The position numbers were made by a program, and so were the translations under genes. A DNA stretch of 64,000 nt from Paratractidigestivibacter faecalis (GTDB lineage: Bacteria > Actinomycetota > Coriobacteriia > Coriobacteriales > Atopobiaceae), in contig NZ_QSNG01000001.1 of NCBI RefSeq assembly GCF_003416765.1, positions 460,742 to 524,741 of the forward strand, written 5' to 3'. Under the pieces are notes generated by a model. The model had not been told where the DNA came from. It saw nothing but the letters and a program-made list of their open reading frames with translations, and did no database searches. Each line of letters starts with the position of its first letter. Position 1 is the stretch's first letter. Below, piece after piece: positions 257-63,250 of this stretch.

Positions 257-1581
257 TGGCTGGCCAGGCCGGGCTGGCGCCCGCGCGCAGGGTGGCCCTC
301 GGCGTGACGTCCGAGCGCCGCCGCCGGGACGCCCGTGCCCGTGACCTCTTGCGCGCCTACGCCGCCATGGGCGCCCTCGACGAGCGCGACCGCGCCCTGG
401 CGAGCCGCCTGGTGCTGGGAAGCGTGGCCGCCGAGGGCGAGCTTGACCGCGTCATAGACTCCCACCTGCGCCGGGGCGCCAAGCTGGAGCCCCGCGTGAG
501 GGACGCGCTGCGCCTCGCCGTCTTCGAGGTGCTCTACCTGGACACCCCGGACTCCGTTGCTGCGAGCCAGGGCGTCGAGCTCGTCCGTACGGTGGCCCCG
601 CGCGCGGCGGGCCTGGCAAACGCCGTCCTGCGCCGCGTGGCCGGCGAGGACGTCGCCCGCCTGGCCGCCAGCCGCGAGGCCCTGGCTCGCGGGCGCTTCT
701 CGGTGTACGACATGGCCCACGTGGGCGGGCTTCCCATCTGGCTCTGCGAGGCCGCGCTGGGCGCCCTTGGGCGCGAGGGTGCCGCCTCCTATGCCGAGGA
801 CGCGCTCGCGCCCGCGCTGCCCACCGTGGCGGCAAACCGCTGCAGACACAGCGAGGCCGAGGCCGTCTCGCTGCTTAGGGAGGCCGGCTGCGACCCGGCT
901 GCCGGCGTGCTGCCGGGAAGCATCCTGCTCGGCCGCATGGCGCGGCTCGCCCCCTCGGGCCTGGTTGACGCCGTGGACGTGCTCCCGTGCGACTACGCCG
1001 CCCAGGAGGTGGCGCTTCTCGCCAGGCCCCGCCCGGGCTCCCGCGTGCTAGAGGTGGGGCAGGGCCGCGGCACCAAGACGGTGCTGCTGGAGTCCGTTGC
1101 CTGCGCCGCCGGCGGGCCGTGCGAGGTCACGGCCGTTGAGGTGGACGCCGCAAAGTCCGCTGCCGCCGCAAGGCGCATGGAGAAGGCCGGCTTGGCCGAG
1201 CACGTGAGGTGCGTGGCCGACGACGGGCGCGCCCTCGATGCCCTTGGCGATGACCTCTTTGACCTGGTCTTTGTTGACGCACCCTGCACGGGCACGGGCA
1301 CGCTCTCGCGCCACCCCGAGATTGCGTGGTCGCTGGCCGATTCCTCAGTGGCGGGCCTTTCTCGCCTGCAGCTCGAGATGCTGACGGCGGCGTCGGCCCA
1401 CGCGCGCCGTGGCGGGCGGCTGGTCTACTCCACCTGCTCCATCCTCGCCGAGGAGAACGAGCGCCTGGTGGAGGCCTTCCTCTCTAGCCCGTCGGGCGCC
1501 CGCTACGAGCTCGTGGGCACGCATCGCACCGCCATCCCCGGCGCCGACCGCCACTTCTGCGCCACCTTCCGCCGCCGCTAG
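256..1581 (+). CDS. rsmB: 16S rRNA (cytosine-967-C5) methyltransferase RsmB
   Basis: About 441 residues, the normal length for RsmB, which methylates C967 of 16S rRNA using S-adenosylmethionine. The N-terminal ~140 residues have the NusB-like RNA-binding fold pattern (ARDLLRAYAAMGALDERDRALASRLV). A SAM-binding motif VLEVGQGRGTKT lies near residue 263. The catalytic and release cysteines are seen in APCTGTGTLSRHPEIAW (about residue 341) and YSTCSILAEENE (about residue 390). I chose GTG 256, which overlaps the fmt stop; an in-frame TTG at 241 would add five residues. Translational coupling with fmt is likely. Confidence 0.93.
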   Translation: MAGQAGLAPARRVALGVTSERRRRDARARDLLRAYAAMGALDERDRALASRLVLGSVAAEGELDRVIDSHLRRGAKLEPRVRDALRLAVFEVLYLDTPDSVAASQGVELVRTVAPRAAGLANAVLRRVAGEDVARLAASREALARGRFSVYDMAHVGGLPIWLCEAALGALGREGAASYAEDALAPALPTVAANRCRHSEAEAVSLLREAGCDPAAGVLPGSILLGRMARLAPSGLVDAVDVLPCDYAAQEVALLARPRPGSRVLEVGQGRGTKTVLLESVACAAGGPCEVTAVEVDAAKSAAAARRMEKAGLAEHVRCVADDGRALDALGDDLFDLVFVDAPCTGTGTLSRHPEIAWSLADSSVAGLSRLQLEMLTAASAHARRGGRLVYSTCSILAEENERLVEAFLSSPSGARYELVGTHRTAIPGADRHFCATFRRR

Positions 1582-1610
1582 GCGCCACCTCTGCCCCTGC
1601 CGTCCCGCGC

Positions 1611-1673
1611 TTTGCATGTGAACCTGGTCGCTGCCATGGCGCCCACCGACCACATTCGCATGCAAGCTGCGGG
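1611..1673. repeat. Intergenic palindromic element, copy 1 (TTGCATGTGAA...TTCGCATGCAA)
   Basis: Arms at 1612-1622 and 1655-1665 are inverted repeats with one mismatch. An inner pair GGTCG (1626-1630) / CGACC also can fold. The right arm and flank CATGCAAGCTGCGGG (1659-1673) recur exactly at 23320-23334, where the left arm is also shared, so this is one of at least two dispersed copies. It is followed by CTTCTCGTC (1676-1684), a variant of the window-wide 9-mer. It could serve as a terminator for rsmB, but there is no T-run. Confidence 0.7.
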
Positions 1674-1684
1674 CACTTCTCGTC

Positions 1685-1745
1685 TTGCAAATAATACGAA
1701 GTCGGACTAAACTGTCCCGTGCTTTGTCCGAAATCGGATTAAGTT
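1685..1745 (+). promoter_or_regulatory. Promoter with two candidate MarR operators
   Basis: A good sigma-70-like promoter is visible: TTGCAA at 1685-1690, a 17-base spacer, and TAAACT at 1708-1713. Two similar sites lie on it: AGTCGGACTAAACT (1700-1713) and AATCGGATTAAGTT (1732-1745). Each begins with a near-perfect 9-bp palindrome (AGTCGGACT, AATCGGATT). They are 32 bp apart, about three helical turns. One covers the spacer and -10 and the other the start of the transcript, as expected for autorepression by the MarR protein encoded next. The role is inferred. Confidence 0.7.
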
Positions 1746-1758
1746 AGCGAGGTCAAAC

Positions 1759-2229: not shown

Positions 2230-4049
2230 TGCAGACCCAGACGAAGCAAGCCAAGGCCAAGAAGACGGGCGAGCTCGCCCTGCTTCTGCGCCTGATGTCT
2301 CCGTACAAGGCGCTCATCGCGGGCCTCGTGGTCACACTCATGTGCGACATCACGGGCATGCTGGTCATCCCGACGCAGCTCAGCGCCCTTCTCAACACCG
2401 CCATCACCACGCGCGACATGGCCGAGGTGGCCCGTCACGGCATCATCATGCTCGTGGCCGCGCTAGTGGGCTCCGGCGGAAACGTGATCTCGTACCGCCT
2501 GGCCGCGCGACTGGCGGCAAACGTGGGCCGCGACCTGCGCTGCGAGGTCTACCGCAAGTCCCTCGAGCTCTCGGGCTATGAGTTTGGCCAGCTGGGCGCC
2601 GGCTCCATGATCACGCGCACCCTCTCTGACGCCAACGTGGTCCAGCAGACCATCATCATGTCCTTCGTCATGATCAGCCCGGTGCCCGTGACCTGCGTCA
2701 TCGCCACCGTCATGGCCTTTGGCATAGACCCGGTCATGGGCTGGCTGCTGCTTGCCGTCATCGTGCTCACCCTGGGCGCCATGGCCTTTGCCGTGTGGAA
2801 GTCCGCGCCGGTCTTCACCGTGCTGCAGGGCTTCATCGACCGCATGAACACCCGCCTGCGCGAGTCCATCACCGGCGTGCGCGTCATCCGCGCCTTTGGC
2901 AAGGAGCCCCACGAGCGCCAGAAGCTCGACCAGACCTTTGAGGACTACGCCGGCCGCGCCATCCGCGTGAACCTGGTCTTTGCGACCGTAGACTCGCTGA
3001 CGTTCTTCTTCATGAACGCCGTGGAGTCTGCCATCTTCTGGGTGGGCGCTGACCGCGTGGGCGCTCACGCCATGCAGATCGGTTCCATATCCGCCCTGGT
3101 GGGGTATGCCATGCTCATCATGTTCTTCATGATGATGGCCCAGTTCTGCGTCCTGCAGATTCCGCGCGCCTGGGCGTGCCTCTCTCGCGCCAACGAGGTC
3201 CTGGACATAGATCCCGCAATCAAGGACCCGGCTGCCGGCAACCTGGCTGCCGCCGGCCGCGCTGACGGCGAGAAGCCCGCGTCGCCCGCGGCCCCCGACG
3301 CCGACGAGGTCGCCCGCTTTGACCATGTGAGCTTCCGCTTTGAGGACGCTGACGAGGACACCCTGCGCGACCTGGACTTTGTTCTGCGCCGCGGCCAGAC
3401 CACGGCCATCATAGGCAACACCGGCTCGGGCAAGTCCACCATCGCCAAGCTCCTGCTGCGCTTCCACGACGTCACCTCGGGCAGCGTCCGGCTGGGCGGC
3501 GCCGACGTGCGCGACCAGACCCAGGACGCCCTGCGCGCCCAGGTGGCCTATGTGCCCCAGGCGGCGTGGCTCTTCTCGGGGACCATCGCCCAGAACCTGC
3601 GGCACGGACGCGCCGAGGCCACCGACGAGGAGCTCTGGCACGCGCTTGACGTTGCCCAGGCCGACTTCGTGCGCGGCCTTCCCGACGGGCTGGGCTCGCG
3701 CGTGGCCCAGGGCGGCTCCAACTTCAGCGGCGGCCAGCGCCAGCGCCTGGCCATCGCCCGCGCCCTCGTGCGCCACGCCGACCTCTACGTCTTTGACGAC
3801 TCCTTCTCGGCGCTGGACTTCCGTACCGACGCGGCCCTGCGCCGCGCGCTGGCACCCGAGCTCGCCCACGCGGCCACGCTCGTCATTGCGCAGCGCGTGA
3901 GCACCATCCGCGACGCGGACCAGATCGTGGTCCTCTCCGAGGGTCGCGTCGTGGGCCTGGGCACCCACGACGAGCTCATGCGCGCGTGCCCCACGTACAA
4001 GGAGATCGCCGACTCCCAGGCAAGGGGAGGGGAGCAGAACGATGACTAG
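2229..4049 (+). CDS. ABC exporter half-transporter, degenerate-site subunit
   Basis: About 606 residues: an N-terminal six-helix exporter domain (roughly residues 20-310) followed by an ATPase domain. Walker A GNTGSGKST lies near residue 396, the signature FSGGQRQR near 498 and Walker B near 521. The catalytic glutamate after Walker B is aspartate (FDDSFSALD) and the switch histidine is glutamine (IAQRVST, about 552). These changes are characteristic of the non-canonical site in heterodimeric exporters such as BmrCD and TM287/288. It overlaps marR by one base and the next gene by 8 bp, consistent with a coupled heterodimer. The substrate is unknown; drug or peptide/lipid export is plausible. 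Confidence 0.92.
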   Translation: MQTQTKQAKAKKTGELALLLRLMSPYKALIAGLVVTLMCDITGMLVIPTQLSALLNTAITTRDMAEVARHGIIMLVAALVGSGGNVISYRLAARLAANVGRDLRCEVYRKSLELSGYEFGQLGAGSMITRTLSDANVVQQTIIMSFVMISPVPVTCVIATVMAFGIDPVMGWLLLAVIVLTLGAMAFAVWKSAPVFTVLQGFIDRMNTRLRESITGVRVIRAFGKEPHERQKLDQTFEDYAGRAIRVNLVFATVDSLTFFFMNAVESAIFWVGADRVGAHAMQIGSISALVGYAMLIMFFMMMAQFCVLQIPRAWACLSRANEVLDIDPAIKDPAAGNLAAAGRADGEKPASPAAPDADEVARFDHVSFRFEDADEDTLRDLDFVLRRGQTTAIIGNTGSGKSTIAKLLLRFHDVTSGSVRLGGADVRDQTQDALRAQVAYVPQAAWLFSGTIAQNLRHGRAEATDEELWHALDVAQADFVRGLPDGLGSRVAQGGSNFSGGQRQRLAIARALVRHADLYVFDDSFSALDFRTDAALRRALAPELAHAATLVIAQRVSTIRDADQIVVLSEGRVVGLGTHDELMRACPTYKEIADSQARGGEQNDD

Positions 4050-5937
4050 CAAGAAAGAAGAGGCGCGCGAGAGGGACGCGCTTCTCGCCGAGAAGGACAT
4101 GGCTGACGGTGTCGTGGCCGCCGACGCCGCCCCCGCGGACCCGGCCCCCGACGAGGAGTCCGAGGTCCCCACCGACGCCGCCACAACCGCCCGTCGCCTC
4201 TGGGAGGCCGCGACCGGCCAGCGCTGGCGCGTGGTGGTGGCCGCCGCCAGCGCGGTGGCCTACGTCTGCTTCAGCCTGGCCGCCCCCGCCTACAGCGCGG
4301 GGCTGGTGGACCTGCTGTGGGCAAACATCCAGGAGGCCTTTGCCGCGGGCACGGGCTTTGTGGTCACGCTGGACAACGGCGGCACTCAGATTCTGACCTT
4401 CCTGGGCATCTGGACGGCCGCGTGGGTCTTCTACACCGTGCAGTCCCTGGTCATGGCGAGCTTTGCCGAGCGCCTGAACCTGGGCCTGCGCCGTCAGATC
4501 TCCGCCAAGGTCGGGCGCCTGCCGCTTTCCTACTATGACGCCCACCAGCCCGGAGACACCATCAGCCGTGCAACCAACGACCTGGACAAGGTCTCCGAGG
4601 TGCTGCAGCGCGGCCTTCTGCAGCTGCTCATCTCGGTGGTCACCCTCGTGGGCGCAACCATCATGATGGCCCGCTACAGCCTCGCGCTCACGGGCGTCTT
4701 CCTGGTGTTTTCCGTGGCGTCCTTCGTGCTGACCAAGGTGGTCTCGGCCCGCACGCTGGTCTACGCCTCGGAACGCCAGGCCTCGCTGGGCAGGCTCACC
4801 GGCAAGGTGGAGGAGGCCTACTCAGGCCGTGCCGTCATCAAGTCCTTCGGGCGCGACGACGCCAGCGCGGCGGAGATCGCCGAGGCAGCCGAGGCCTTTG
4901 CCCGCACGAGCGAGCGCATGGACTTTGTGACCAACGCCATCAGCCCGGCCATCCGCTTCCTCACGCGCCTGGCGCAGGTGGGCATCGGCCTGCTCGCGGG
5001 CGGTATGCTGGTTGCGGGGCAGCTCACCGTCGGCGTCTTCCAGGCGTTCTTCCAGTACGTGACCCAGGCCACCGAGCCCCTGACGCAGCTCTCGCTCACG
5101 GTGAACCAGCTGCAGGGCGCCCTGGCCGCCGCCGAGCGCGTCTTCCGCCTGCTCGACGAGCCCGAGGTGGAGCCCGACCCGGCCGAGCCCCTGCGTCCCG
5201 TCGAGCCCGTGCGCGGACAGGTGGCCTTCGAGCACGTGCGCTTTGGCTACGACCCGGCGCGTCCGCTCATGCATGACGTGAGCCTCGTCGCCGAGCCCGG
5301 CCAGAAGGTGGCCATCGTGGGTGCCACGGGAGCGGGCAAGACCACCCTCATCAACCTCCTCATGCGCTTCTACGAGGTGGACGGCGGCCGCATCACGCTG
5401 GACGGCGTGGACACCCGCCAGATGACCCGCGCCGACCTGCGCCGCCAGTTTGGCATGGTGCTGCAGGACGCCTGGCTCTTCGAGGGCAGCATCGCCCAGA
5501 ACATTGCCTACGGCCACCCGGGCGCCACGCGCGAGGAGGTTGAGGCCGCGGCCCGTGCCGCCCACGTGGACTTCTTCGTGCGCACCCTGCCCCAGGGCTA
5601 CGATACCAAGATCTCCAACGACGGCGAGAACATCAGCCAGGGCCAGCGCCAGCTCCTGACCATCGCCCGTGCCATGCTCTGCGACCCTGCCATCCTCATC
5701 CTGGACGAGGCCACCTCAAGCGTGGACACCCGCACCGAGCAGGCCATCGTGCGCGCCATGGAGGCCATCATGGAGAACCGCACGAGCTTCGTCATCGCCC
5801 ACCGCCTCTCCACCATCGTGGACGCCGACCTCATCCTGGTCATGGACCACGGCACCATCATCGAGCAGGGCACCCACGCCGAGCTCCTCGCCGCGGGCGG
5901 CACCTACGCCGAGCTCTATCAGTCGCAGTTTGCATAG
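4042..5937 (+). CDS. ABC exporter half-transporter, catalytic subunit
   Basis: 631 residues. An acidic, Ala/Pro/Asp-rich N-terminal extension of about 55 residues precedes the first membrane helix, then a six-helix exporter domain and an ATPase domain. Walker A GATGAGKTT lies near residue 427, the signature SQGQRQ near 531, LDEATSSVD near 553 and switch histidine AHRLST near 586. Unlike its partner it keeps the catalytic Glu and His, so it should supply the hydrolytic residues for one ATP site of the heterodimer. Its start overlaps the partner's stop by 8 bp. It is followed by a strong hairpin terminator. Confidence 0.92.
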   Translation: MTSKKEEARERDALLAEKDMADGVVAADAAPADPAPDEESEVPTDAATTARRLWEAATGQRWRVVVAAASAVAYVCFSLAAPAYSAGLVDLLWANIQEAFAAGTGFVVTLDNGGTQILTFLGIWTAAWVFYTVQSLVMASFAERLNLGLRRQISAKVGRLPLSYYDAHQPGDTISRATNDLDKVSEVLQRGLLQLLISVVTLVGATIMMARYSLALTGVFLVFSVASFVLTKVVSARTLVYASERQASLGRLTGKVEEAYSGRAVIKSFGRDDASAAEIAEAAEAFARTSERMDFVTNAISPAIRFLTRLAQVGIGLLAGGMLVAGQLTVGVFQAFFQYVTQATEPLTQLSLTVNQLQGALAAAERVFRLLDEPEVEPDPAEPLRPVEPVRGQVAFEHVRFGYDPARPLMHDVSLVAEPGQKVAIVGATGAGKTTLINLLMRFYEVDGGRITLDGVDTRQMTRADLRRQFGMVLQDAWLFEGSIAQNIAYGHPGATREEVEAAARAAHVDFFVRTLPQGYDTKISNDGENISQGQRQLLTIARAMLCDPAILILDEATSSVDTRTEQAIVRAMEAIMENRTSFVIAHRLSTIVDADLILVMDHGTIIEQGTHAELLAAGGTYAELYQSQFA

Positions 5938-5938
5938 G

Positions 5939-5958
5939 GGCGAGAAGCGCTTCTTGCC
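5939..5958. repeat. Palindromic dimer of the over-represented 9-mer
   Basis: GGCGAGAAG-CG-CTTCTTGCC sits two bases after the stop of the exporter gene. It is a 20-bp palindrome with one mismatch. The same layout (9-mer, two bases, inverted 9-mer) recurs at 6051-6070 and 8374-8393. Confidence 0.7.
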
Positions 5959-6050: not shown

Positions 6051-6070
6051 GTCGAGAAGCCCTTCTCGCC
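6051..6070. repeat. Palindromic dimer of the over-represented 9-mer
   Basis: GTCGAGAAG-CC-CTTCTCGCC lies just past the end of the minus-strand FmdB gene. It differs from the perfect dimer at 8374-8393 only at one arm position and the two central bases. Confidence 0.65.
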
Positions 6071-6473: not shown

Positions 6474-7850
6474 ATGCCCATCACCGGTGCCATCTTTGAC
6501 TGCGACGGAACCCTCGCCGACTCCATGGGCATGTGGCGGCAGGTGGTGGAGGGCCTCCTGGTCAAGCGCGGCATGCCCGTCCCGCCCGACTTCTACGAGC
6601 GTACCGAGCCCGTGAGCCTGCGCGACGGCTGCGTCATGGTCCACGAGGAGTTTGGCCTGGGGCGGGATGCGGAGTCCCTCTACGAGGAGCTCTGCGCGGA
6701 CGTGCGCGCGGCCTACGCCCGCGTGCCGCTCCTGCCGGGTGCGCGCGAGTTCCTGCAGGAGCTGGCCTGTGCCGGCATTCCCATGGTCATGGCCTCCTCC
6801 ACGCCGGTGCGCGAGCTCAGGAGCTGCCTTGAGACCCACGGCATCGCCGGCTTCTTCAAGGACGTGGTCTCAACCGAGGACGTGGGCGGGCGCGACAAGG
6901 AGTTCCCCGACGTCTACGAGGAGGCCCTGCGCCGCCTGGGCACGTCCAAGGAGTCCACGTGGGTCTTCGAGGACGCCCCCTTTGGCGTGCAGACCTCCCA
7001 CAGGGCGGGCTTCAACGTGGTGGGCCTCATGAACGACCATGACGGCCGCCGCGAGGAGGACGTGCGTCCCTACTGCGACGTCTACGCGCACGGATACGCC
7101 GAGCTCTCCCTCGCGCTGCTGAACGACTACGCAAGGCCCGCGGACGCCTCCGCCCTCGGCTCCTCGGCTGGCGAGAAGCCCCTGCAGGTCCTGGTGGTCG
7201 ACGGCTCGCCCGAGCCCAGCTCGCCGGAGACGGTGGCCCGCCTTGCCGCCGAGGCGGACTACGTGGTCTGCGCCGATGGCGGGGCCGCCGCGTGCCGCGC
7301 CGCCGGCGTTGCGCCCGACGTCTTCTGCGGCGATGCCGACTCCGCAAGCGCTGACGACGCCGACTGGGCGCGCGCCGCCGCCAAGACCGACATTCGCTTT
7401 CCCGCCGAGAAGTACGCCACGGACCTCTCGCTGGCGCTTGACTGCGCCCGCCACGAGGCCGCGCGCCAGGGTCGCGCGCTGTCGCTGACGCTTACCTGCG
7501 CGAGCGGCGGCAGGCCCGACCACGCCCTGGCCGTGGTGGGCCTCCTGGCGGGGCTCGCCCAAGAGGGGGCCGCGTGCGCACGCCTGGTGGAGGACGCCTC
7601 CGAGCTGCGCGTCCTTGCGCCTGTCGGGCAGGCCGAGTGGCGCCTGGGCCCTGACGCCTGCGGACGCACCTTCAGCGCCGTCGCCGTTGCCCCCAACACC
7701 CGCATTGACGAGAAGGGCCTCAAGTGGGAGCTTGCGGACAAGCCCATGGGGCTTCTCGACGACCTGGGCATCTCCAACGTGGTCGTTGACGCCGACGCCT
7801 GCGTGACCTGCCGCTCCGGCGCCGTCGCCGCGTTCCTGCTGGGGGACTAG
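6474..7850 (+). CDS. Fusion: HAD-family phosphatase/mutase domain + thiamine pyrophosphokinase domain
   Basis: 458 residues with two complete domains. Residues 1-225 form a HAD hydrolase of the beta-phosphoglucomutase type: DCDGTLADS with Asp9/Asp11, a serine motif SSTPVREL near 108, and EDAPFGVQ near 165. From about residue 238 a thiamine pyrophosphokinase domain follows: VVCADGGAA, then VFCGDADSA, then IRFPAEKYATDL, then TCASGGRPDHAL. TPK makes thiamine diphosphate from thiamine and ATP. The HAD half could dephosphorylate thiamine monophosphate or a related metabolite, but that is inference. No frameshift or internal stop separates the domains. RBS AAAGGGG lies just upstream. Confidence 0.85.
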   Translation: MPITGAIFDCDGTLADSMGMWRQVVEGLLVKRGMPVPPDFYERTEPVSLRDGCVMVHEEFGLGRDAESLYEELCADVRAAYARVPLLPGAREFLQELACAGIPMVMASSTPVRELRSCLETHGIAGFFKDVVSTEDVGGRDKEFPDVYEEALRRLGTSKESTWVFEDAPFGVQTSHRAGFNVVGLMNDHDGRREEDVRPYCDVYAHGYAELSLALLNDYARPADASALGSSAGEKPLQVLVVDGSPEPSSPETVARLAAEADYVVCADGGAAACRAAGVAPDVFCGDADSASADDADWARAAAKTDIRFPAEKYATDLSLALDCARHEAARQGRALSLTLTCASGGRPDHALAVVGLLAGLAQEGAACARLVEDASELRVLAPVGQAEWRLGPDACGRTFSAVAVAPNTRIDEKGLKWELADKPMGLLDDLGISNVVVDADACVTCRSGAVAAFLLGD

Positions 7851-8236: not shown

Positions 8237-8298
8237 GTTGATGGGGCGGGACGCTCTTCTCGCCGCTCGTCCTTCTCGCCGTCCGCCTTCCCGATTGC

Positions 8299-8366: not shown

Positions 8367-8373
8367 CTTGCGC

Positions 8374-8393
8374 GGCGAGAAGAGCTTCTCGCC
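8374..8393. repeat. Perfect palindromic dimer of the over-represented 9-mer
   Basis: GGCGAGAAG-AG-CTTCTCGCC is a 20-bp inverted repeat, perfect except for the two central bases. It is the best of three such dimers in the first 8.4 kb. Confidence 0.85.
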
Positions 8394-8411
8394 GGGAAGA
8401 GCGTCTGCCGC

Positions 8412-9957: not shown

Positions 9958-10662
9958 GTGAACGGAATGACTAAACGCGTCGTGGTGGGAGAGGCCGTTG
10001 CGCTCGTAGCCTGGCTCATCGTCATGCTGGCCTGCCAGAACGTCCTCATGAGCCCCTTTGTCTTCTATACGTCTCTGCTCTTTGGGCTTCTCGCCTTTGT
10101 GGTGTCTGCTGTCTCCATGGCGCTGGCAGACCGCCAGGGAGGGTCTCGCGCCATGACGGAGACCGGCTTTGGGCTCTCGACGGTGCTCTCCGTCGGGCTC
10201 TTTGCAGTGCTCCTTCTGGTCAACACGGTTTTCTGCTTTGCCTCCTTTGCCTGGATCTCCACTACGCTGCCGGTCGTCGTGAACGTGGCCATCTTGGCCG
10301 TCATGGTGATTGCGCGTGTGGGGCTTGACTCTCACGCAAAGACGGCCCAGGCAAACGTCAATTCGGCGGCGGCAAAGACGGGGGCTTTCGCTGGCTTCTC
10401 CGGTCGTCTGGGCGATCTTCTGGCGCAGGCGGACGAGCCCGAGGTCAGGGCTGCCCTTCTCGCCCTCAAGGAGGACGTCTCCATGAGCTCGAATGTCTCT
10501 CAGCCCCACACACTGGACTTGGAAGGGCAGTTTGCGTCGGAGCTCCGCGCCATAGAGGCCTCCATCCAGAAGAATGATCCGATTGAGGAGACGCTTGGCC
10601 TGGTGGCCCAAGCGAGGACTACGTGGCGCAAGCGCAATGCGGCGCTGACCTCGATCAAGTAG
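9958..10662 (+). CDS. Four-helix membrane protein with cytoplasmic helical tail
   Basis: 234 residues starting at GTG, with AAGGAGG at 9944-9950 seven bases upstream. Four hydrophobic segments occupy roughly residues 8-125 (LVAWLIVMLACQNVLM, FYTSLLFGLLAFVVSAVSM, VGLFAVLLLVNTVFCFASF, VVVNVAILAVMVIARV). The last ~110 residues are polar and probably helical and cytoplasmic. I do not recognise a family. It sits 12 bases after the SPFH gene and 51 bases before a zinc-ribbon gene, so it is probably the membrane anchor of this cluster. Confidence 0.7.
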   Translation: MNGMTKRVVVGEAVALVAWLIVMLACQNVLMSPFVFYTSLLFGLLAFVVSAVSMALADRQGGSRAMTETGFGLSTVLSVGLFAVLLLVNTVFCFASFAWISTTLPVVVNVAILAVMVIARVGLDSHAKTAQANVNSAAAKTGAFAGFSGRLGDLLAQADEPEVRAALLALKEDVSMSSNVSQPHTLDLEGQFASELRAIEASIQKNDPIEETLGLVAQARTTWRKRNAALTSIK

Positions 10663-15345: not shown

Positions 15346-15444
15346 AGGCGCTGTCTAAGGCCGCTTGGCGAGTAGCCGTCCTGCCGTCCCTTGCTACCAT
15401 AGATCTCCCGACCCCGCGCACTTCTCGCCAGCAAAGGAGCCACG

Positions 15445-16477: not shown

Positions 16478-16573
16478 TTGCGCGTGCAAACCGCGGCGTG
16501 CCATTCGCCCCCGTCCCCAATGGCACTCACCCAATGGCATACTCGCGGCGAGAAGCCTGACTCGGCCCTAAAG

Positions 16574-16814: not shown

Positions 16815-19800
16815 ATGAGCCAGAACCTTGCATCCGCGCAGGCGCCCGCGCAGTCCGGCGACGCCGAGCCCGCCCAGCCGCGCGACCTGTACCGCAGCGA
16901 GTACGAGCACGACGCCTGCGGCATCGGCGCCATCGCGCACCTCAAGGGCAAGCGCAGCCACCAGACCCTGGACGACGCGCTGTCCGTCCTGGTCAACCTG
17001 GAGCACCGCGGCGGCACCGGCCTGGAGCGCAACACCGGCGACGGCGCCGGCGTGCTCTTCCAGATCCCGCACCGCTTCTTCCGCAAGGAGGCGCAGAAGG
17101 AGGGCCAGCTCCTGCCCGACGAGGGCGACTACGGCGTGGCCATGCTCTTCTTCCCGCACGACGACCCCCAGGGCGTCGCCGACGCGCGCCGCGTCTTCGA
17201 GGAGGGCTGCGCCGCGGCCGGCGTGCCCCTCATGTTCTGGCGAGAGGTGCCCGTGGACCCGCACGACCTGGGCAGCACGGCCCAGGCCTGCATGCCCACC
17301 ATCCTGCAAGCCTTCCTGCGCCGCCCGGAGTCCACGCCGCGCGGCCAGGACTTCGAGCGCAAGCTCTACGTCTGCCGCCGCACCATCGAGCGCATGGCCG
17401 ACGCCAACCCCGCGCTTGCCGGCAAGATCTTCTACGTGTGCTCCATGTCCAGTCGCACCATCGTCTACAAGGGCATGCTCGTGGCCACGCAGATGCGCCG
17501 CTTCTTCACCGACCTCAACGACGCTGCGGTGGAGACCTCGCTGGCCCTGGTGCACTCCCGCTACTCCACCAACACCACGCCCAGCTGGGAGCGCGCGCAC
17601 CCCAACCGCTACATCATCCACAACGGAGAGATCAACACCCTGCGCGGCAACGTGTCCTGGATCCGCGCCCGCGAGCCGCACCTCTACAGCCCCGTCCTCG
17701 GGCATGACCTCGAGAAGGTCGTTCCCATCATCAACAAGGAGGGCTCGGACTCCGCCATCCTGGACAACGTCCTGGAGTTTTTGACCATGAACGGCCGCCC
17801 GCTGGACCGCGCGGTGACGCTCATGATTCCCGAGCCCTGGGACAAGAACCCCAACATCTCCGACAAGCGCCGCTCCTACGACGCATACCAGTCCATGCTC
17901 ATGGAGCCCTGGGACGGGCCGGCCGCCATCGCCTTCACCGACGGCCGCATCCTGGGCGCCGCCCTCGACAGAAACGGCCTGCGCCCGGCGCGCTACTACG
18001 TCACCCGCGACGACCGCATCATCCTCTCGTCCGAGGTGGGCACCATCGACGTGGACCCGGCAAACGTGCTGCGCACGGGCTGCCTCGGCCCCGGCGAGAT
18101 GCTGGAGGTCGACCCCTCCCAGGGCCGCGTCATCTGGAACGACGAGATCCGCGACCGCTTTGCAAACGAGAAGCCCTACCGAGACTGGCTCGACGAGGAG
18201 ACCCTCGACATCTCCGACCTGCGCGAGCCCGGAGAGGCCGAGCTGCCCGACGCCCCCGACGGGGCCATCCCGCTGACCGAGCGCATGGCTCGCCTGGGCT
18301 ACCACTACGACGACGTGGACGAGGCCATCCGCCCCATGGCAACCGCGGCCAAGGTGCCCCTGGCCTCCATGGGCGTGGACGCGCCGCTGGCGTGCCTCTC
18401 CAAGAAGACCCGCTCGTTCTTTGACTACTTCAACCAGCTCTTTGCGCAGGTCACCAACCCGCCCATCGACGCCCTGCGCGAGAGCCTGGTCACCAGCCAG
18501 GTGCTCTACCTGGGCAACCATGGCAACCTCCTGGAGGACTGCCGCGACACCTGCCGCCTGGTGCGCCTGCAGGGCCCCATGCTCACCAGGGACGCCTTCG
18601 AGCGCATCTGCGCCATCGACCGCGTGGGCTTCAAGACGGTGCGCCTGACCTGCTCCTACCCGAGGGACGGCCAAGAGGGCGCCCTCGCCGCGGCGCTTGA
18701 CCGCCTGGCGGCCGACGCCGAGGCCGCCGTGCGCGGCGGGGCCAACATCGTCGTGCTCTCCGACCGCGCCGCCGCCGGGGAGGTGCCGGTGCCGTCCCTG
18801 CTCTCGCTGGGCTGCGTGCACAACCACCTCATCCGCGTGGGCCTGCGCATGAACGCCGACCTGGTGGTGGAGACCGGCGACGCCATCAACGCGCACGACT
18901 TTGCCTGCCTGGTGGGCTACTCCGCCTCCGGCATCTACCCCTACATGGCCCACGAGTGCATCGCAGACCTCTGCGAGAGGGGCGCCATCGAGCTTCCCGT
19001 GGAGGAGGCCCAGGCCAACTATGACCGCGCCGTCACGGCAGGCATCGTCTCCATCATGTCCAAGATGGGCATCTCCACCATGCAGGGCTACCACTCCGCC
19101 CAGATCTTCGAGGTGCTCGGCCTCTCCGAGGACCTGGTTGAGCGCTACTTCACGTCCACGGCCACGCGCATCGGCGGCCTTGGCATCGGTGACGTCCAGC
19201 GCGAGCTCTCCGAACGCTATGACTCCGCCCGCGCCCTGGCCAAGACCCCCGCGCCCGACCAGCTGCCCTCCCTGGGCCTCACCAAGTGGCGTCCGCAGGG
19301 CGGCGAGGAGCACCTCATCGACCCCAAGGCCGTCTACCTGCTGCAGCATGCCTGCCGCGAGGGAAGCTACGAGGAGTTCAAGGAGTTCTCCGCCTGGGTG
19401 CACCGCCCCGGCCGCGCCGTCACCCTGCGCGACCTCATGGGCTTCTCGCCAAAGGGCGCGCCCGTGCCGCTTGACGAGGTCGAGCCTGTGGAGAGCATCC
19501 TCACCCGCTTCAACACCGGCGCCATGAGCTACGGCTCCATCAGCCGGGAGCAGCACGAGTGCCTGGCCATCGCCATGAACCGCATCCACGGCCGCTCCAA
19601 CACCGGCGAGGGCGGAGAGGATCCCGCGCGCGAGACCCCGCTTCCCAACGGGGACTCCAGGAAGAGCGCCATCAAGCAGGTGGCCTCCGGCCGCTTTGGC
19701 GTCACGAGCCGCTACCTGAGGAGCGCCATAGAGATCCAGATCAAGATGGCCCAGGGCGCCAAGCCCGGCGAGGGCGGCCACCTGCCCGGCAAGAAGGTCT

Positions 19801-23228: not shown

Positions 23229-23271
23229 GGGCTCGTCCCTTCTCGCCGTGCGCTTCTTACCTGCTCCGCCG

Positions 23272-45601: not shown

Positions 45602-45663
45602 TTTTCGCGCCAGCTGCCGATGCGGTGGGCACTTCTCGCCGTGTCGGTCTGAAAGGAGCAAGC

Positions 45664-48717: not shown

Positions 48718-48791
48718 CCGCGCAGGCTGCGCTCCGCGCCCTTCTCGCCTCCGCTCGCCGTTGAAAGAAATTGCCGACTTTTGCAAATTTC

Positions 48792-51946: not shown

Positions 51947-51965
51947 CGATGCCCGACCCCGCGGC

Positions 51966-51982
51966 CTTCTCGCCTGTATACT
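51966..51982 (+). promoter_or_regulatory. Promoter-like CTTCTCG-N4-TATACT element of rapZ
   Basis: CTTCTCGCC (51966-51974), then TG, then TATACT (51977-51982), 33 bases before the rapZ start. The TG at 51975-51976 abuts the -10. No -35-like hexamer at standard distance. Confidence 0.55.
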
Positions 51983-55027: not shown

Positions 55028-56674
55028 CTACTTCGCAAGCGTTGCGTTTTGCAGCTCGGGCAGGCGCGCGGCGTTGACCTTGATGTTGGTGAACTTATTC
55101 GAGGTCACCTTGTTCAGCGTCTTGTGCAGCATGGGGATGATGGGCATATCCTCGGCAGCAATCACGTCCGCCTCGTGCATAAGCTGGATACGCTCGCTCT
55201 CGTCGACGGTCCTTCTCGCCTCGTCAAGCTTGGCGTCGAAATCTGCGTTGGAGTAGTGCGAGACGTTATCGCCCACGCCGGTGTACATGAGGGGCTGCAG
55301 GAAGTTGTCCATGATGGGGTAGTCCGCCGTCCAGCCGCGGAAGCCAATCTGGAAGTTGCCGGCAATGTAGTCGTCGAGCATCGTTGCGTATTCCTTCTGG
55401 TCGATGGTCACCTCGATGCCCACCGCCTTCCAGTCGCTCTGAAGGATCTCGCTCTCATCCGTCTTGACGTTGGAAGACACCATGACGGTGAGTTCGATTC
55501 CGCGCATCCCGTCAGGGCCAGCGGGATAGCCCGCCTCGTCAAGAAGCTTGTTGGCCTTGTCGACGTCGTAGCCGCAGTACTGCCACGTGGTCTCGTCGTT
55601 GCCCTTGATTCCCGGCGGGACGATGTCGCCTGCGGGCTTTGCGAAGCCCTCGTACAGCGTGTCGCAGAGGTTCTGGCGGTTAATGGCGAGCGACATTGCC
55701 TGGCGAACCCTCTTGTCAGAGAGGACGGGATCGTTGACGTTGTACGCGAGGTACTCCGTGTACAGAACCTCGCCGACCAACGTCTGCTTGTTGGGGGAGG
55801 TGGTGTAGCCGTCATCCGACTGGCCGTACTTGTCTACCGTCTCTTTGACGCGTCCTGCCGGGATGTCGCAAATGTCGAGGTTGCCGGCCTCAAACTCGCG
55901 ATATGCCGTAGTTGTGTCCTTGTAGATGTTGTAGCGGATGGCGTCGCATTTGACGGGCCTGTCGCCGGCGTAGCCCTCATAGCGCGTCATGTTGATGTAC
56001 TGGCCATCGTTCCAGGCGCCGTCCATCTGGAGGGGGCCATTGCCTACGGGCGACTTGGAGTAAGTATCGAAGTTGCCCTTGGCGCAGTCGGGAATGGGCG
56101 AGAGGGGTGCGCAGGACACAACGAAGGGGAAGTCGGCGTAGGGCTCGTCGAGCTCAACCTTGAGGGTGTAATCATCGGGGCAAGAAAGCCCCTCAAGCTC
56201 CTCGGCCTTTCCATTTACCACATCGTCGTAGCCCTTGACCATTGCGAGGTGGTACGAGACCACGGAAGGCGCCACGGTGGTTTTGGGGTTGCAAAGTCGG
56301 TTCCACGCGTACTGGAACGACTTGGCCGTCACATCGGAACCGTCATGGAACTTGAGCCCCTGCTTGATACGGAACGTCCACGTCGCTGCTTCGTCGGACG
56401 ACTCCCACGACTCGGCAACGCTGGGCTTGATCTCTTCCGTGTCATAGTCGTAGGTCGTGAGCTGGTCGAAGAGCTGGGAAGCAACGGCTGCGCCATAGAA
56501 CTCCTCAATGTCGAAGGGGTCGATCGACGTGGGGTTCGTGATTGCATAGTTGATGGTCCCGCCGGAGGGCTTCCCGCCGCCGGACGAACGCTGCCCGCAG
56601 GCGGCAAGACTGGTTGCCGCAACTGCGGCGGCTCCGCCCTTGATGAAGGTACGACGATTCATCGAGTGATCCAT
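55028..56674 (-). CDS. Peptide-type ABC substrate-binding lipoprotein
   Basis: 548 residues; ATG 56674 with AGGAGG upstream. A twin-arginine-like signal (NRRTFIKGGAAAVAATSLAAC) ends at lipobox Cys26. The body is an SBP_bac_5 protein with oligopeptide-binding features (TWTFRIKQGLKFHDGSDVTA, SPVGNGPLQMDGAWNDGQYI, RVRQAMSLAINRQNLCDTLYEGF). No permease or ATPase gene is next to it, so it must use a transporter encoded elsewhere. Flanked by creatininase-family genes, it may collect their substrate. Confidence 0.88.
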   Translation of the reverse strand: MDHSMNRRTFIKGGAAAVAATSLAACGQRSSGGGKPSGGTINYAITNPTSIDPFDIEEFYGAAVASQLFDQLTTYDYDTEEIKPSVAESWESSDEAATWTFRIKQGLKFHDGSDVTAKSFQYAWNRLCNPKTTVAPSVVSYHLAMVKGYDDVVNGKAEELEGLSCPDDYTLKVELDEPYADFPFVVSCAPLSPIPDCAKGNFDTYSKSPVGNGPLQMDGAWNDGQYINMTRYEGYAGDRPVKCDAIRYNIYKDTTTAYREFEAGNLDICDIPAGRVKETVDKYGQSDDGYTTSPNKQTLVGEVLYTEYLAYNVNDPVLSDKRVRQAMSLAINRQNLCDTLYEGFAKPAGDIVPPGIKGNDETTWQYCGYDVDKANKLLDEAGYPAGPDGMRGIELTVMVSSNVKTDESEILQSDWKAVGIEVTIDQKEYATMLDDYIAGNFQIGFRGWTADYPIMDNFLQPLMYTGVGDNVSHYSNADFDAKLDEARRTVDESERIQLMHEADVIAAEDMPIIPMLHKTLNKVTSNKFTNIKVNAARLPELQNATLAK

Positions 56675-57014: not shown

Positions 57015-57830
57015 ATGTACATGGCGAGAAGCACTTGGACACAGGTTCGTGATTACTTTAAGAGGCATGACCTGGTGATTATTGGGGTCGGCTCGACCGA
57101 GTGCCACGGCAGGCACAATCCGCTGGGCACCGACACCATGGCGCCAGACAGAATCCTCGAGCTGTTGGAAGTGCGTGATGGAACATATCTCGTTGCGCCG
57201 ACCCTTCCCTATGGTGCGACGGATGACCTTGTTGGGTATCCGGGCACGGTGAGCCTTGGCGTGCAGGGGCTCTACGATGTCCTCTCGAGCATCACGCGGC
57301 AGCTGGTCAGCTACGGCGCGCGTCGCTTTGTCTTCCTTAACGGCCATGGCGGCAACGTGAAGTCGCTCTCGATGGTGTCAATGGATCTGAACGACGCCGG
57401 GTGCCTCGCGGCAGTTGTCAACTGGTGGAAGGTGGCTCCGCAGCTTAACCCGGCATGGGGCGGCGGGCATGGCGGCGCCATGGAGACGAGCGCCAATCTC
57501 GCCATTGATCCCGCTTCCGTCGACATGTCGCAGGTGACCGACGAGGGCCTGCTCAACGACATCGGAGAGGATATGCCCTCGTGCGGCTGGAACACCGTGA
57601 GCTTTGGCGGAGCCGAGGTCGAGTTCCCACGCCGGCTTGCGCGTTTTGCGAGTTCCGGGTGGGTTGCCGAGGGGCATGAGGACCACCCGAGTGGCGCCAG
57701 CGCAGAGCTTGGCACCGCGATGCTCGAGGGCACGGCAACGTGGCTCCAGGGCTTTACGCACGCCTTGGAGGCCGAGGAGCTGCCCCAACCGATCGACTTC
57801 TCCCACGAGACGGACCGCCTCGACCGCTAA
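57015..57830 (+). CDS. Creatininase-family amidohydrolase, paralogue 2
   Basis: 271 residues; ATG with AAGGAGG upstream. Ligand motifs are VGSTECHGRHNPLGTDT, LNGHGGN and GGHGGAMETS, very close to paralogue 1. The fold binds two metals and hydrolyses cyclic or linear amides, or acts as a peptidase in MftE. It lies 78 bases before paralogue 3 on the same strand, probably in one transcript with it and the M42 gene. Confidence 0.87.
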   Translation: MYMARSTWTQVRDYFKRHDLVIIGVGSTECHGRHNPLGTDTMAPDRILELLEVRDGTYLVAPTLPYGATDDLVGYPGTVSLGVQGLYDVLSSITRQLVSYGARRFVFLNGHGGNVKSLSMVSMDLNDAGCLAAVVNWWKVAPQLNPAWGGGHGGAMETSANLAIDPASVDMSQVTDEGLLNDIGEDMPSCGWNTVSFGGAEVEFPRRLARFASSGWVAEGHEDHPSGASAELGTAMLEGTATWLQGFTHALEAEELPQPIDFSHETDRLDR

Positions 57831-58778: not shown

Positions 58779-59852
58779 ATGGAATTTAATGACAGCGAGG
58801 TCGCGGACCTTCTTGGCAGGCTTTCTAACGCAAAGTCTCCCTCGGGCTTCGAGGACGAGGTCGTTGACGTCGTGCGTGACTTTTGCAGCGGGTGGGCAAA
58901 GGTCGAGAGCAACACCGTCCACGATGCTCTCATCACTCCCAACAATTTCACGGGCGATAAGCCCGTCCTCATGCTCGACGCGCACGGCGACGAGGTCGGG
59001 GGCATGGTCAAGTCCATCCGCTCCAACGGCACGATGACGTTCGTCGAGCTTGGCCGCTTCTCTCCCAACGTGCTCGCTGGTCAGGATGTCCTGGTCAGAA
59101 ACACGCTCGGCGAGTGGGTGCACGGCGTCATCGGCGTGAAGCCGCCGCACTTCATGAGCACTGCCGAGCGCGCGACCGGGGAGCTCCAGCTCATCCTGGA
59201 TGTCGGTGCCACCTCCAAGGAGGAGGCGGTGAACGTCTTCCACATGGGCATGGGCGAGCCCTTTGTGCCCGCTACGAAGTTTGAGTACAACGAGGCGACC
59301 GGTGTTGCGCTGGGCAAGGCGTTCGACTGCCGCGCAGGAGTCGCCGCCGAGCTTCTCGCCCTGCGTGAGCTTTCCGGCCGCGATGATCTTCCCTTCGACG
59401 TCGTGGCGTCGGTGAGCGCCATGGAAGAGGTAGGCGAGCGGGGCGTGCTCGCAGCGGCCATGCGCTTCAACCCCATGGTCGCCTTCATGTTCGAAGGCTG
59501 CCCGGCCGATGACACCTTCACCATTCCCGATGACGTTCAGACCGCCTTCCGCCACGGCCCGATGTTCCGCTACTTCGACTGCTGCATGATCACCAATCCG
59601 CGTTACCAGCGCTTCGTTCTCAAGTGCGCTTCAGAGGCGGGGCTTGTGTGCCAAACGAGCGTTCGCGAGGGCGGCGGCACCGATGGCGGACCTATCCACA
59701 TGCTTGACGTGCCTTGTGTGGTTGCCGGCGTTCCCAGCCGCTACGTCCACTCCGGGACCGCCCTGTGCACGCTCTACGACGTCAAGATGACGGCGGAGGT
59801 TGCGGTCGCGGTGGCCGAGCGCATGACCCCCGAGGACGTCCGCGCGTTCTAG
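58779..59852 (+). CDS. M42-family metallo-aminopeptidase
   Basis: 357 residues. M42 enzymes are large cytoplasmic peptidase complexes with two zinc or cobalt ions. Ligand regions are LMLDAHGDEVGG, GKAFDCRAGVAAE, SAMEEVGERG and EGCPADDTF, and the C-terminal EGGGTDGGPIHMLDVPCVVAGVPSRYVHS block is clear (two motifs). The expected Asp-Asp of GKALDDR is Asp-Cys here (FDCRAG), a small deviation. Downstream of two creatininase-family genes it fits peptide breakdown. It may also act as a glutamyl or deblocking aminopeptidase. Confidence 0.88.
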   Translation: MEFNDSEVADLLGRLSNAKSPSGFEDEVVDVVRDFCSGWAKVESNTVHDALITPNNFTGDKPVLMLDAHGDEVGGMVKSIRSNGTMTFVELGRFSPNVLAGQDVLVRNTLGEWVHGVIGVKPPHFMSTAERATGELQLILDVGATSKEEAVNVFHMGMGEPFVPATKFEYNEATGVALGKAFDCRAGVAAELLALRELSGRDDLPFDVVASVSAMEEVGERGVLAAAMRFNPMVAFMFEGCPADDTFTIPDDVQTAFRHGPMFRYFDCCMITNPRYQRFVLKCASEAGLVCQTSVREGGGTDGGPIHMLDVPCVVAGVPSRYVHSGTALCTLYDVKMTAEVAVAVAERMTPEDVRAF

Positions 59853-61242: not shown

Positions 61243-61270
61243 TGCACCTTCCACCAGCTAAGGAGTAAGC

Positions 61271-62461
61271 ATGGCCTTTACCAAGAAGACCGTCCGCGAC
61301 GCCGACGTCGAGGGCAAGCGCGTCCTCATGCGCGTTGACTTCAACGTGCCCCTGAAGGACGGCGTGGTCACCGACGACACGCGCGTGCGTGCCGCCATCC
61401 CCACCATCCAGTACCTCAAGGAGCACAACGCCAAGATCATCCTGATGAGCCACCTCGGCCGTCCGGATGGCACCGGCTTCCAGCCCGAGCTCTCCCTGCG
61501 CCCCGCCGCCGAGAAGCTCGCCGAGCTCACCGGCTATGACGTGAAGTTCGTCGAGGACACCTACGGCGACAAGGCCACCGAGGCCGTGGCCGCCCTCAAC
61601 GATGGCGACATCCTCGTCCTCGAGAACGTCCGCTTCGACAAGCGCGAGAAGAAGAACGACCCGGAGATTGCCAAGAAGCTTGCCTCCTACGGCGACATCT
61701 TCGTCCTCGACGCCTTCGGCACCGCACACCGCGCCCAGGGCTCCGTCGTGGGCCCCGCCGCCTACCTGCCCGCCTACGCCGGCTTCCTGCTCGAGAAGGA
61801 GGTCGACACCCTGACCAGCATCTTCGCCGAGCCCGAGCGTCCGTTCGTGGCCATCGTCGGCGGCTCCAAGGTCTCCTCCAAGATCGGCGTCCTCGACCAC
61901 CTCATCGACTCCGCCGACACCCTGATCATCGGTGGCGGCATGGCCTACACCTTCTTCCTGGCCCAGGGCATGACCGTCGGCCAGTCCCTCAAGGAGGAGG
62001 ATTGGGTCGAGCGCGCGGGCGAGATGCTCAAGAAGGCCGAGGCCAAGGGCGTCAAGATTCTGCTCCCCATCGACAACCGCGTCGCCGACCACTTTGGCGA
62101 GGACGCCGTGCCGGAGGTCGTTCCCTCCAACGCCATTCCCGATGACCGCGAGGGCATGGATATTGGCCCCAAGACCGAGGAGCTCTACGCCGAGGCCATC
62201 AAGGGCGCCAAGACCGTCTTCTGGAACGGCCCCATGGGCGTCTTCGAGTTCGACAACTTCGCTCACGGCACCGAGGCCGTCTGCCGCGCCGTGGCCGAGT
62301 CTGACTGCACGTCCATCATCGGTGGTGGAGACTCCGTCGCCGCTGTCAACAAGTTCGGCCTGGCCGACAAGATGAGCTGGATCTCCACCGGCGGTGGCGC
62401 TTCCATGGAGCTCGTCGAGGGCAAGGCCCTTCCCGGAGTGGAGGCGCTTCTCGATGCGTAA
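61271..62461 (+). CDS. pgk: Phosphoglycerate kinase
   Basis: 396 residues with AAGGAGT upstream. N-terminal KRVLMRVDFNVPLKDG, MSHLGRPDG and the C-terminal nucleotide site (GPMGVFEFDNFAHGT and GGGDSVAAV) are diagnostic. It makes ATP from 1,3-bisphosphoglycerate in glycolysis. Its last 8 bases overlap the start of tpiA. Confidence 0.98.
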   Translation: MAFTKKTVRDADVEGKRVLMRVDFNVPLKDGVVTDDTRVRAAIPTIQYLKEHNAKIILMSHLGRPDGTGFQPELSLRPAAEKLAELTGYDVKFVEDTYGDKATEAVAALNDGDILVLENVRFDKREKKNDPEIAKKLASYGDIFVLDAFGTAHRAQGSVVGPAAYLPAYAGFLLEKEVDTLTSIFAEPERPFVAIVGGSKVSSKIGVLDHLIDSADTLIIGGGMAYTFFLAQGMTVGQSLKEEDWVERAGEMLKKAEAKGVKILLPIDNRVADHFGEDAVPEVVPSNAIPDDREGMDIGPKTEELYAEAIKGAKTVFWNGPMGVFEFDNFAHGTEAVCRAVAESDCTSIIGGGDSVAAVNKFGLADKMSWISTGGGASMELVEGKALPGVEALLDA

Positions 62462-63218
62462 CCGTATGATCGCTGGCAACTGGAAGATGAACAAGACCTA
62501 CGTCGAGGGCGTCGAGCTCGCGCAGGGTCTGGCCGACCAGCTTGCCGATGGCACCGGCGACGTCGACGTCGTCGTCTGCCCGCCCACCGTTGACCTCAAG
62601 GGCGTCTCCGAGGTCATCGAGCAGTCCGAGGCCCCCTTCGCCCTCGGTGCCCAGAACGTCTACTTCGAGGAGTCCGGCGCCTTCACCGGCGAGACCGCTC
62701 CCAACATGCTCGAGGCCGTGAGTGCCACCTACTGCATCATCGGCCACTCCGAGCGTCGCGGCTACTTCGGCGAGACCGACGAGGACATCAACAAGAAGGC
62801 CAAGGTCCTCATGGCCCACGGCATCGTCCCCATCTCCTGCTGCGGCGAGCCCCTCGAGGTCCGCGAGGCCGGCACGCACGTTGACTTTGTCGTGAACCAG
62901 ATCAAGGCCGACACCGAGGGCCTGGAGATCTCCGACCCCTCCAAGTACGTCGTCGCCTACGAGCCCATCTGGGCCATCGGCACCGGCAAGACCGCCACTG
63001 CCGATGACGCCCAGGAGGTCTGCGGCGCCATCCGCAAGACCCTGGCCGAGGTCTTTGGCCAGGAGACTGCCGACGGCATCCGCGTCCTCTACGGCGGCTC
63101 CGCCAAGCCCGAGAACGTCGCCGGCTTCCTCGAGAAGGAGGACGTCGACGGTGCCCTCGTCGGCGGCGCCTCCCTCAAGGCCGACTCCTTCTCCGCCATG
63201 GTGAAGGCTGCCATGTAG
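62454..63218 (+). CDS. tpiA: Triosephosphate isomerase
   Basis: 254 residues from ATG 62454; GGAGTGGAGG lies about 10 bases upstream. NWKMNK (catalytic Lys), IIGHSERR (His) and VVAYEPIWAIGTG (Glu) and the phosphate loop RVLYGGSAKPENV are intact. It interconverts DHAP and G3P. Overlap with pgk suggests translational coupling. Confidence 0.98.
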   Translation: MRNRMIAGNWKMNKTYVEGVELAQGLADQLADGTGDVDVVVCPPTVDLKGVSEVIEQSEAPFALGAQNVYFEESGAFTGETAPNMLEAVSATYCIIGHSERRGYFGETDEDINKKAKVLMAHGIVPISCCGEPLEVREAGTHVDFVVNQIKADTEGLEISDPSKYVVAYEPIWAIGTGKTATADDAQEVCGAIRKTLAEVFGQETADGIRVLYGGSAKPENVAGFLEKEDVDGALVGGASLKADSFSAMVKAAM

Positions 63219-63234
63219 CTTTAAGGAGCACGCG

Positions 63235-63250
63235 CTTCTCGCCAGATAAT
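63235..63250 (+). promoter_or_regulatory. Promoter-like CTTCTCG-N3-GATAAT element
   Basis: CTTCTCGCC (63235-63243), then A and GATAAT (63245-63250). It lies just ahead of the tpiA terminator, so a transcript from it would meet the hairpin at once. It may be a short leader/attenuator promoter or a chance match. Confidence 0.35.

Follow-up and report, generated by a model that had tools for sequence, protein, structure and literature searches.

The words most similar to the repeat described here are the DNA uptake sequences (DUS) of Neisseriaceae and the uptake signal sequences (USS) of Pasteurellaceae, the only two families known to use such words according to the available part of a 2025 paper (PMC12616744). 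In the portions of the published accounts available to us, DUS and USS have many genic copies, an excess outside genes, no orientation bias, and some inverted repeats (PMC1939737, PMC3630211), and they are further described as having lineage dialects and being scarce in accessory DNA (PMC1939737, PMC3630211, PMC5031613). Here, we analyze a 64,000-nucleotide stretch of the Paratractidigestivibacter faecalis genome (the window) and the word GNNCTTCTCGCC that recurs in it. GNNCTTCTCGCC spans 12 bases, ten of them fixed, has about 800 copies in the genome, and is maintained by a process other than codon use. We consider it a probable DNA uptake sequence of this Atopobiaceae bacterium, a reading to which we assign a probability of roughly 0.6.

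A 12-base word is over-represented within and between genes

The 9-base core of the word, CTTCTCGCC, occurs in 32 exact copies in the window, 23 on the plus strand and 9 on the minus strand. A preliminary description of this DNA had listed the same copies, with one coordinate to be corrected from 55213 to 55212. Its expectation of about one copy agrees with dinucleotide shuffles of the window (mean, 1.27; maximum, 4; 100 shuffles), and the core tops the z ranking of window 9-mers with at least 8 copies under a second-order Markov model. Independent gene calls, made with our own script, again left 13 of the 32 copies outside genes. In addition to what had been described, the position three bases upstream of the core (−3) is a G in 29 of the 32 copies, which yields the longer word GNNCTTCTCGCC.

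The window is part (C1:460742-524741) of the largest contig, C1 (2,085,387 bases), of the six-contig source assembly (G000; 2,107,986 bases). Across the whole genome there are 884 copies of CTTCTCGCC, 441 forward and 443 reverse, compared to 50 copies of the reversed word (25 + 25), and 808 copies of GNNCTTCTCGCC, compared to 22 for its reversed control. The location of the copies was analyzed in a sample consisting of the window and 27 pieces of 20 kb from C1 (28 stretches; 604 kb, of which 16 kb is N and 588 kb is readable). Our script called 474 genes in this sample (81.5% coding), and gene ends are therefore approximate. The statistics are confined to C1; the remaining five contigs total 22.6 kb and carry two copies, both in L008. 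In total, the sample contains 262 copies of CTTCTCGCC (141 forward, 121 reverse), with 104 in the 108.5 kb of noncoding DNA, 156 in genes, and 2 on gene edges, equivalent to densities per kb of 0.96 (intergenic) and 0.33 (genic).

The 104 noncoding copies compare with 2.4 expected from a second-order Markov model; the expectation climbs to 78 at order 6, as higher orders absorb the word itself. Within genes, the sense form was found 75 times, versus 9.6 (standard deviation, 3.0) in 60 synonymous shuffles. The shuffles retain the codons contributed by the word, and the expectation is therefore, if anything, high. The preliminary description had proposed a genome-wide signal and named a codon-aware expectation and intergenic enrichment as the checks that could refute it; the genic frequency lies above the shuffles and the intergenic excess is strong, so the proposal of a genome-wide signal is supported.

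The upstream G belongs to the word. It is present in 247/260 sampled copies (99/104 intergenic and 148/156 genic), which gives 99 intergenic copies of the exact 12-mer versus 0.71 expected and 148 genic copies versus 51 in shuffles. In genes, an A or a C at −3 is instead less frequent than in the shuffles (1 versus 6.5 and 3 versus 15.1, respectively). The G accompanies 50 of the 52 in-frame copies that encode Leu-Leu-Ala, compared to 75/159 other Leu-Leu-Ala sites (Fisher P = 1e-11). For in-frame copies encoding Gly-Glu-Lys, the matching C is found in 71/74, compared to 9/13 other Gly-Glu-Lys sites and a genome-wide third-base C frequency of 57%. Out-of-frame genic copies carry the G in 27 of 30 cases.

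Near misses are also over-represented between genes. Among single substitutions there, the most frequent replace the first core base by T (17 versus 0.7), the core G by C (16 versus 0.6), or either of the last two bases (41 in all); the −3 G and TTCTC are seldom substituted, with C for the first T of TTCTC in 6 cases. A larger mobile repeat was considered and rejected: apart from the −3 G and faint signs of inverted partners, base frequencies at the 15 positions flanking the word on either side reveal little.

The word lacks strand polarity and often forms inverted pairs

The word is distributed genome-wide on both strands without polarity and is densest between genes, where it is often arranged in inverted pairs. 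The 23:9 split of the window (binomial P = 0.02) is local, because the whole genome is balanced at 441:443. Taking the origin to be at about 1.87 Mb and the terminus at about 0.77 Mb, as inferred from gene direction, the 28-stretch sample has a leading-to-lagging ratio of 143:119 (P = 0.16), or 120:110 without the window.

Sorted by the layout of the neighboring genes, there are 22 copies in 11.5 kb between convergent genes, 68 in 52.1 kb between tandem genes, and 11 in 29.3 kb between divergent genes; these counts omit three copies that are not flanked by genes on both sides. An inverted partner matching at least 8 of 9 bases lies within about 30 bp of 50/104 intergenic copies, compared to 96/1120 random intergenic places. 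Exact inverted pairs within 25 bp number 22, the commonest being head-to-head with spacers of 2 bp and 6 bp (6 cases each). At a spacer of 2 bp, the end of the partner supplies the −3 G of each copy; in the head-to-head pairs with a 6-bp spacer, the G is present in 11/12 copies.

The word is sparse in prophage-related contigs

Two regions of the sample were recognized as foreign by eye from their translations, namely, a prophage with tail genes, an amidase, and a holin-like protein (L020:8500-20000) and a phosphotransferase and transposase region (L026). Neither the prophage stretch nor L026 contains a copy of the word. The 662-residue tail protein of the prophage is identical to that of an IMG/VR contig, and two phage contigs are related to the prophage, with 100% and 72% identity in this protein. 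Together, the two contigs hold 2 copies of GNNCTTCTCGCC in 38 kb, versus an expectation of 14.6 from the density in the host (P = 6e-5; a small sample). The other 78 phage contigs, at ≤45% identity and without an assigned host, have 2 copies in 0.97 Mb and were not counted as a test.

The word and a related dialect are distributed by lineage

The nearest named genomes belong to Thermophilibacter (family Atopobiaceae, order Coriobacteriales), Olsenella, and further Atopobiaceae. We counted GNNCTTCTCGCC on both strands in 395 genomes of the order, tallied by hand against a threshold of at least 150 copies. In total, 65/395 genomes reached the threshold and the other 330 had fewer copies; the family of the source genome contributes 60 of its 140 genomes. 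By genus, the threshold is reached by both genomes of g1 (808 and 524 copies), 31/31 of g4 (287 to 1393 copies), 5/5 of g15 (215 to 430), 8/8 of g29 (399 to 521), and 3/3 of g30 (769 to 932), among others. In a second family, f10, all 4 genomes of genus g55 have 389 to 753 copies, and genus g51 has 7 to 80 (controls, 2 to 26). Family f9 has one genome above the threshold, with 179 copies versus 45 for the control. G000, G004, and G036 are conspicuous in a set of 198 genomes taken from the phylum; outside the order, four of the 198 reach 150 copies, all of them genomes of 7.9 to 9.9 Mb with controls of 64 to 82. At named loci (53/80 counted), Thermophilibacter has 4 to 13 twelve-mers per about 21 kb, and 13 Collinsella loci have 0 to 3.

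The −3 G accompanies the core in the word-rich genomes. It is found in 1393/1462 9-mers of G004, 1038/1084 of G036, 775/821 of G030, and 808/884 of G000, as well as in 427/492 of G015, 524/618 of G001, 663/849 of G012, and 435/565 of G029. The fraction is lower in word-poor genomes (e.g., 76/159 in G016 and 8/29 in G028).

In genus g23, the word is replaced by a related dialect, GNNYTTCTCGGCA. The two g23 species have 626 and 623 copies of it (reversed control, 5 and 4) and only 40 and 26 copies of the main form GNNCTTCTCGCC; G000 has 56 copies of GNNYTTCTCGGCA. In 100 kb of samples from G023, the main 9-mer occurs only twice and TTCTCGGCA occurs 24 times, with a G at the same place in 22/24; genic TTCTCGGCA with this G numbers 14 copies versus 1.3 in shuffles. 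GNNYTTCTCGGCA also stands beside the main form in other genera, with 185 to 254 copies in g29, 80 to 145 in g15, and 91 to 241 in g11, and with 132 copies in G033. The counts of the two forms thus indicate that the 5′ half, GNNYTTCTCG, is kept and the 3′ end is changed, with mixtures. Samples of 49 to 100 kb from G007, G009, G016, G017, G021, G024, G027, and G037 yielded no convincing dialect; the sample of G028 covered 20 kb.

Other short words are in excess in some of these samples. The G024 sample has an excess of TGCCGCA-type words. The intergenic DNA of G027 (L078-L081) is rich in GGGGAGTA and ACCTATCAAG (16 and 9 copies versus about 0.4 and 0.1), which are hardly found in genes and are probably repeats, and GTTGTGATA-type words, probably another repeat, abound in that of G015 (L046-L050; 12 copies versus 0.2 expected).

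The conservation of individual sites was estimated by aligning 13 named loci with the window; the comparisons are ordered pairs, which are not independent, and alignments above 97% identity were excluded. Intergenic sites were conserved in 64/92 cases, versus 37.9% of all 12-base places, and genic sites in 246/445 cases, versus 37.0%.

The genome encodes competence and AddAB-like proteins

The competence machinery of G000 comprises ComEA, ComEC, DprA, and a Tad/Flp-like cluster. ComEA (SLBB plus helix-hairpin-helix) adjoins ComEC. The cluster contains the only T2SSE ATPase of the genome, together with a T2SSF protein, a MinD/ParA-like protein, and a pair of short Flp-like proteins; this pair has no Pfam match and was called by eye, as was the Tad/Flp name of the cluster. 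At L176:6773-13671, a UvrD helicase with a PD-(D/E)XK domain adjoins a second PD-(D/E)XK protein, forming an AddAB-like pair. A link of the word to ComEC or to the T2SSE ATPase was considered and dropped, as neither gene discriminates among 60 relatives.

A probable DNA uptake sequence and its alternatives

The word shares with DUS and USS its abundance in coding and noncoding DNA, the absence of orientation bias, an intergenic excess with inverted pairs, an excess of near misses, lineage dialects, scarcity in foreign DNA (in a small sample), and the presence of competence genes in the genome. If GNNCTTCTCGCC is a DNA uptake sequence, a putative receptor would bind it, either on the Tad/Flp-like pilus or where ComEA acts, and DNA of relatives would be taken up preferentially. 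Imported copies would then recombine into the chromosome, and the biased uptake would multiply the word and its near misses by molecular drive. Among the roles listed in the preliminary description (a Chi-like, FtsK-orienting polar sequence [KOPS]-like, uptake, or chromosome-organizing sequence), uptake is favored as the role of a genome-wide signal, and the polarity needed for KOPS or Chi is absent.

Several observations weigh against an uptake sequence or limit the case for it. The antisense form in genes is in only mild excess (81 versus 64.6 [standard deviation, 3.8] in synonymous shuffles). Conservation at genic sites does not distinguish the word from codon-like control words, which with at least 100 aligned cases are conserved at rates of 0.21 to 0.71, a range that includes the word in both sense (0.64) and antisense (0.39) orientation. 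The dialect is not cleanly separate, given that GNNYTTCTCGGCA is also present in 59 to 350 copies in the 31 g4 genomes that carry the main form. Inverted pairs, common in G000, are rare among relatives, each sample of which held 0 to 3. Even spacing was not found: counted in 116 bins of 5 kb, with close copies merged, the word shows slight clustering (variance/mean, 1.24). It is also missing from the 8.5 kb of host sequence adjacent to the prophage in L020, and single stretches therefore mean little. ComEC is present in 57/60 relatives and the T2SSE ATPase in 59/60 (57 above the cutoff), with or without the word, and the machinery thus does not track it. Finally, the AddAB-like pair makes a Chi site possible.

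The word could instead be the site of a chromosome-associated protein that serves nucleoid organization, segregation, or self-marking, with no role in uptake. Such a protein would account for a genome-wide, symmetric, and specific word, and we regard it as an unlikely yet serious explanation. Inverted pairs, an excess of near misses, and dialects that change only at the 3′ end are known from DUS and USS and speak for uptake, though they are compatible with another binding protein.

A Chi-like site of AddAB, which the enzyme would read on one strand and at which it would switch from degrading to repairing DNA, appears less probable still. Chi words are genome-wide and differ between species, an AddAB-like pair is encoded here, and the scarcity of the word in the two prophage-related contigs fits a Chi site too. 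As a control, 300 kb of Escherichia coli K-12 was passed through the same scripts. Its 58 Chi sites have a leading-to-lagging ratio of 44:14, compared to 143:119 for the word. Between genes, Chi is rarer than in genes (0.075 versus 0.219 per kb), although its 4 sites there exceed the 1.2 expected, and the word is denser (0.96 versus 0.33 per kb). No two of the 58 sites are within 40 bp of each other, whereas the word is often in inverted pairs. Moreover, ten fixed positions over 12 bases would be long for a Chi. A search of open-license papers for Chi together with GCTGGTGG, leading strand, and intergenic returned nothing.

It is very doubtful that the word is a part of transcription terminators that multiplied as hairpins. 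The inverted partners of 50/104 intergenic copies and the peak in density where genes converge (22 copies in 11.5 kb) would suit terminators; however, 54/104 intergenic copies lack such a partner, and 156 of the 262 sampled copies are genic, the −3 G being present in 148. The genic copies rule out terminators as the whole explanation; that some copies serve in terminators as a by-product is likely.

There is hardly any prospect that codon use for Leu-Leu-Ala and Gly-Glu-Lys produced the word as a by-product. Most genic copies are in frame (126/156) and the antisense form is mildly above its shuffle, but synonymous shuffling leaves the 75 sense copies unexplained (9.6 expected), the 104 intergenic copies contradict such an origin, and the −3 G persists in out-of-frame genic copies; codon use was rejected on these grounds.

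A KOPS-like polar sequence for FtsK, for which the local 23:9 bias spoke, can be practically dismissed together with a polar Chi, as the origin-terminus polarity that the preliminary description had looked to for support is missing from the strand counts, both genome-wide (441:443) and leading to lagging (143:119; P = 0.16).

Copies in the window and other repeats of the chromosome

Of the copies of GNNCTTCTCGCC in the window, those on the plus strand and in sense within genes are at positions 1012..1023, 4078..4089, 10084..10095, 10453..10464, 20508..20519, 33346..33357, and 59349..59360, and three more plus-strand copies lie out of frame in genes (19439..19450, 32100..32111, and 37725..37736). 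Antisense copies in genes are found on the minus strand at 3267..3278, 7170..7181, 31402..31413, and 45281..45292. The copies within minus-strand genes (cores at 29062, 29788, and 55212) are all on the plus strand, as reported earlier, and thus antisense to these genes (29059..29070, 29785..29796, and 55209..55220, the last out of frame). A minus-strand copy at 57023..57034 is out of frame near the start of a plus-strand gene. Intergenic copies are located at 5939..5950 on the minus strand and at 6059..6070, 15418..15429, 45629..45640, 48738..48749, 51963..51974, and 63232..63243 on the plus strand. The core without the −3 G occurs at 16547..16555 (minus strand, intergenic), 23239..23247 (plus strand, intergenic), and 34635..34643 (minus strand, antisense in a gene).

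The intergenic region at 8240-8430 has a cluster of four copies. Two are on the plus strand at 8253..8264 and 8269..8280, and the other two, at 8374..8385 (minus strand) and 8382..8393 (plus strand), form a perfect head-to-head inverted pair with a 2-bp spacer; the flanks look inverted-repeated by eye. The only Rfam match of the window at gathering score is a tRNA-Val gene (gac) at 16358-16432.

Outside the window, G000 has two other dispersed repeats. One, intergenic, is built around TTTGCGCAAAAACGAACACGTCCCCAATTTGCG; its form GAACACGTCC has 16 copies in 8/28 stretches (L005, L006, L017, L019, L021, L022, L025, and L030), often as inverted pairs. The second, CTCACACGAAGG, has 22 copies in 6/28 stretches (L005, L006, L016, L024, L025, and L027); some form direct pairs with a distance of 40 bp, and these pairs recur in mirror image 105 to 226 bp away.

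Comparison with known systems

A broader proposal comes close to an even call, leaning slightly toward yes. It holds that the word represents a third independently evolved DUS system, the first in a Gram-positive phylum and outside Proteobacteria, comprising two or more dialects spread over Atopobiaceae; the main form would extend to one genus of a second family, and a Tad/Flp-type machine would read the word. In open-license papers, mostly represented by their titles and the beginnings of their abstracts, searches on uptake sequences in Actinomycetota, Gram-positive bacteria, Coriobacteriia, Atopobiaceae genera, and Collinsella found no report of such a word in Actinomycetota. The literature matches to the string CTTCTCGCC that were shown (10 of 263) were unrelated by title, and no report of competence was found for Atopobiaceae in the parts of papers available. 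If the proposal is correct, this third case, in Actinomycetota, would mean that such mate recognition arose on at least three occasions, and perhaps that a different type of pilus can serve it. Word-rich Atopobiaceae would be predicted to be naturally transformable, addition of the word to DNA would provide a practical handle for their genetics, and a new receptor and dialect system would be on offer.

The Chi sites of RecBCD and AddAB resemble the word in being short and over-represented genome-wide, and AddAB-like genes are present here; the word differs in its lack of strand bias, its higher density between genes, and its inverted pairs. Competence in Micrococcus luteus, which depends on a Flp/Tad pilus (PMC6370729), is similar in its ComEA, ComEC, and Tad/Flp-like cluster, the last of putative function here; no uptake word is mentioned in the available part of that paper.

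The DUS of Neisseriaceae and the USS of Pasteurellaceae have other sequences and belong to another phylum (Proteobacteria for DUS, versus Actinomycetota here), and in comparison with both, the present word is a candidate uptake sequence. Neisseriaceae have thousands of copies and a minor pilin, ComP, as the reader, compared to about 800 copies and a Tad/Flp-like cluster with a single T2SSE ATPase here. According to the available part of the Pasteurellaceae account, the USS is similar to the word in its core of roughly 9 bases, the absence of orientation bias, the excess outside genes, and some inverted repeats (PMC1939737). As far as the available part of the Neisseriaceae account extends, the DUS is likewise a word of 10 to 12 bases with many genic and intergenic copies, intergenic inverted pairs, and lineage dialects that share a common core (PMC3630211).

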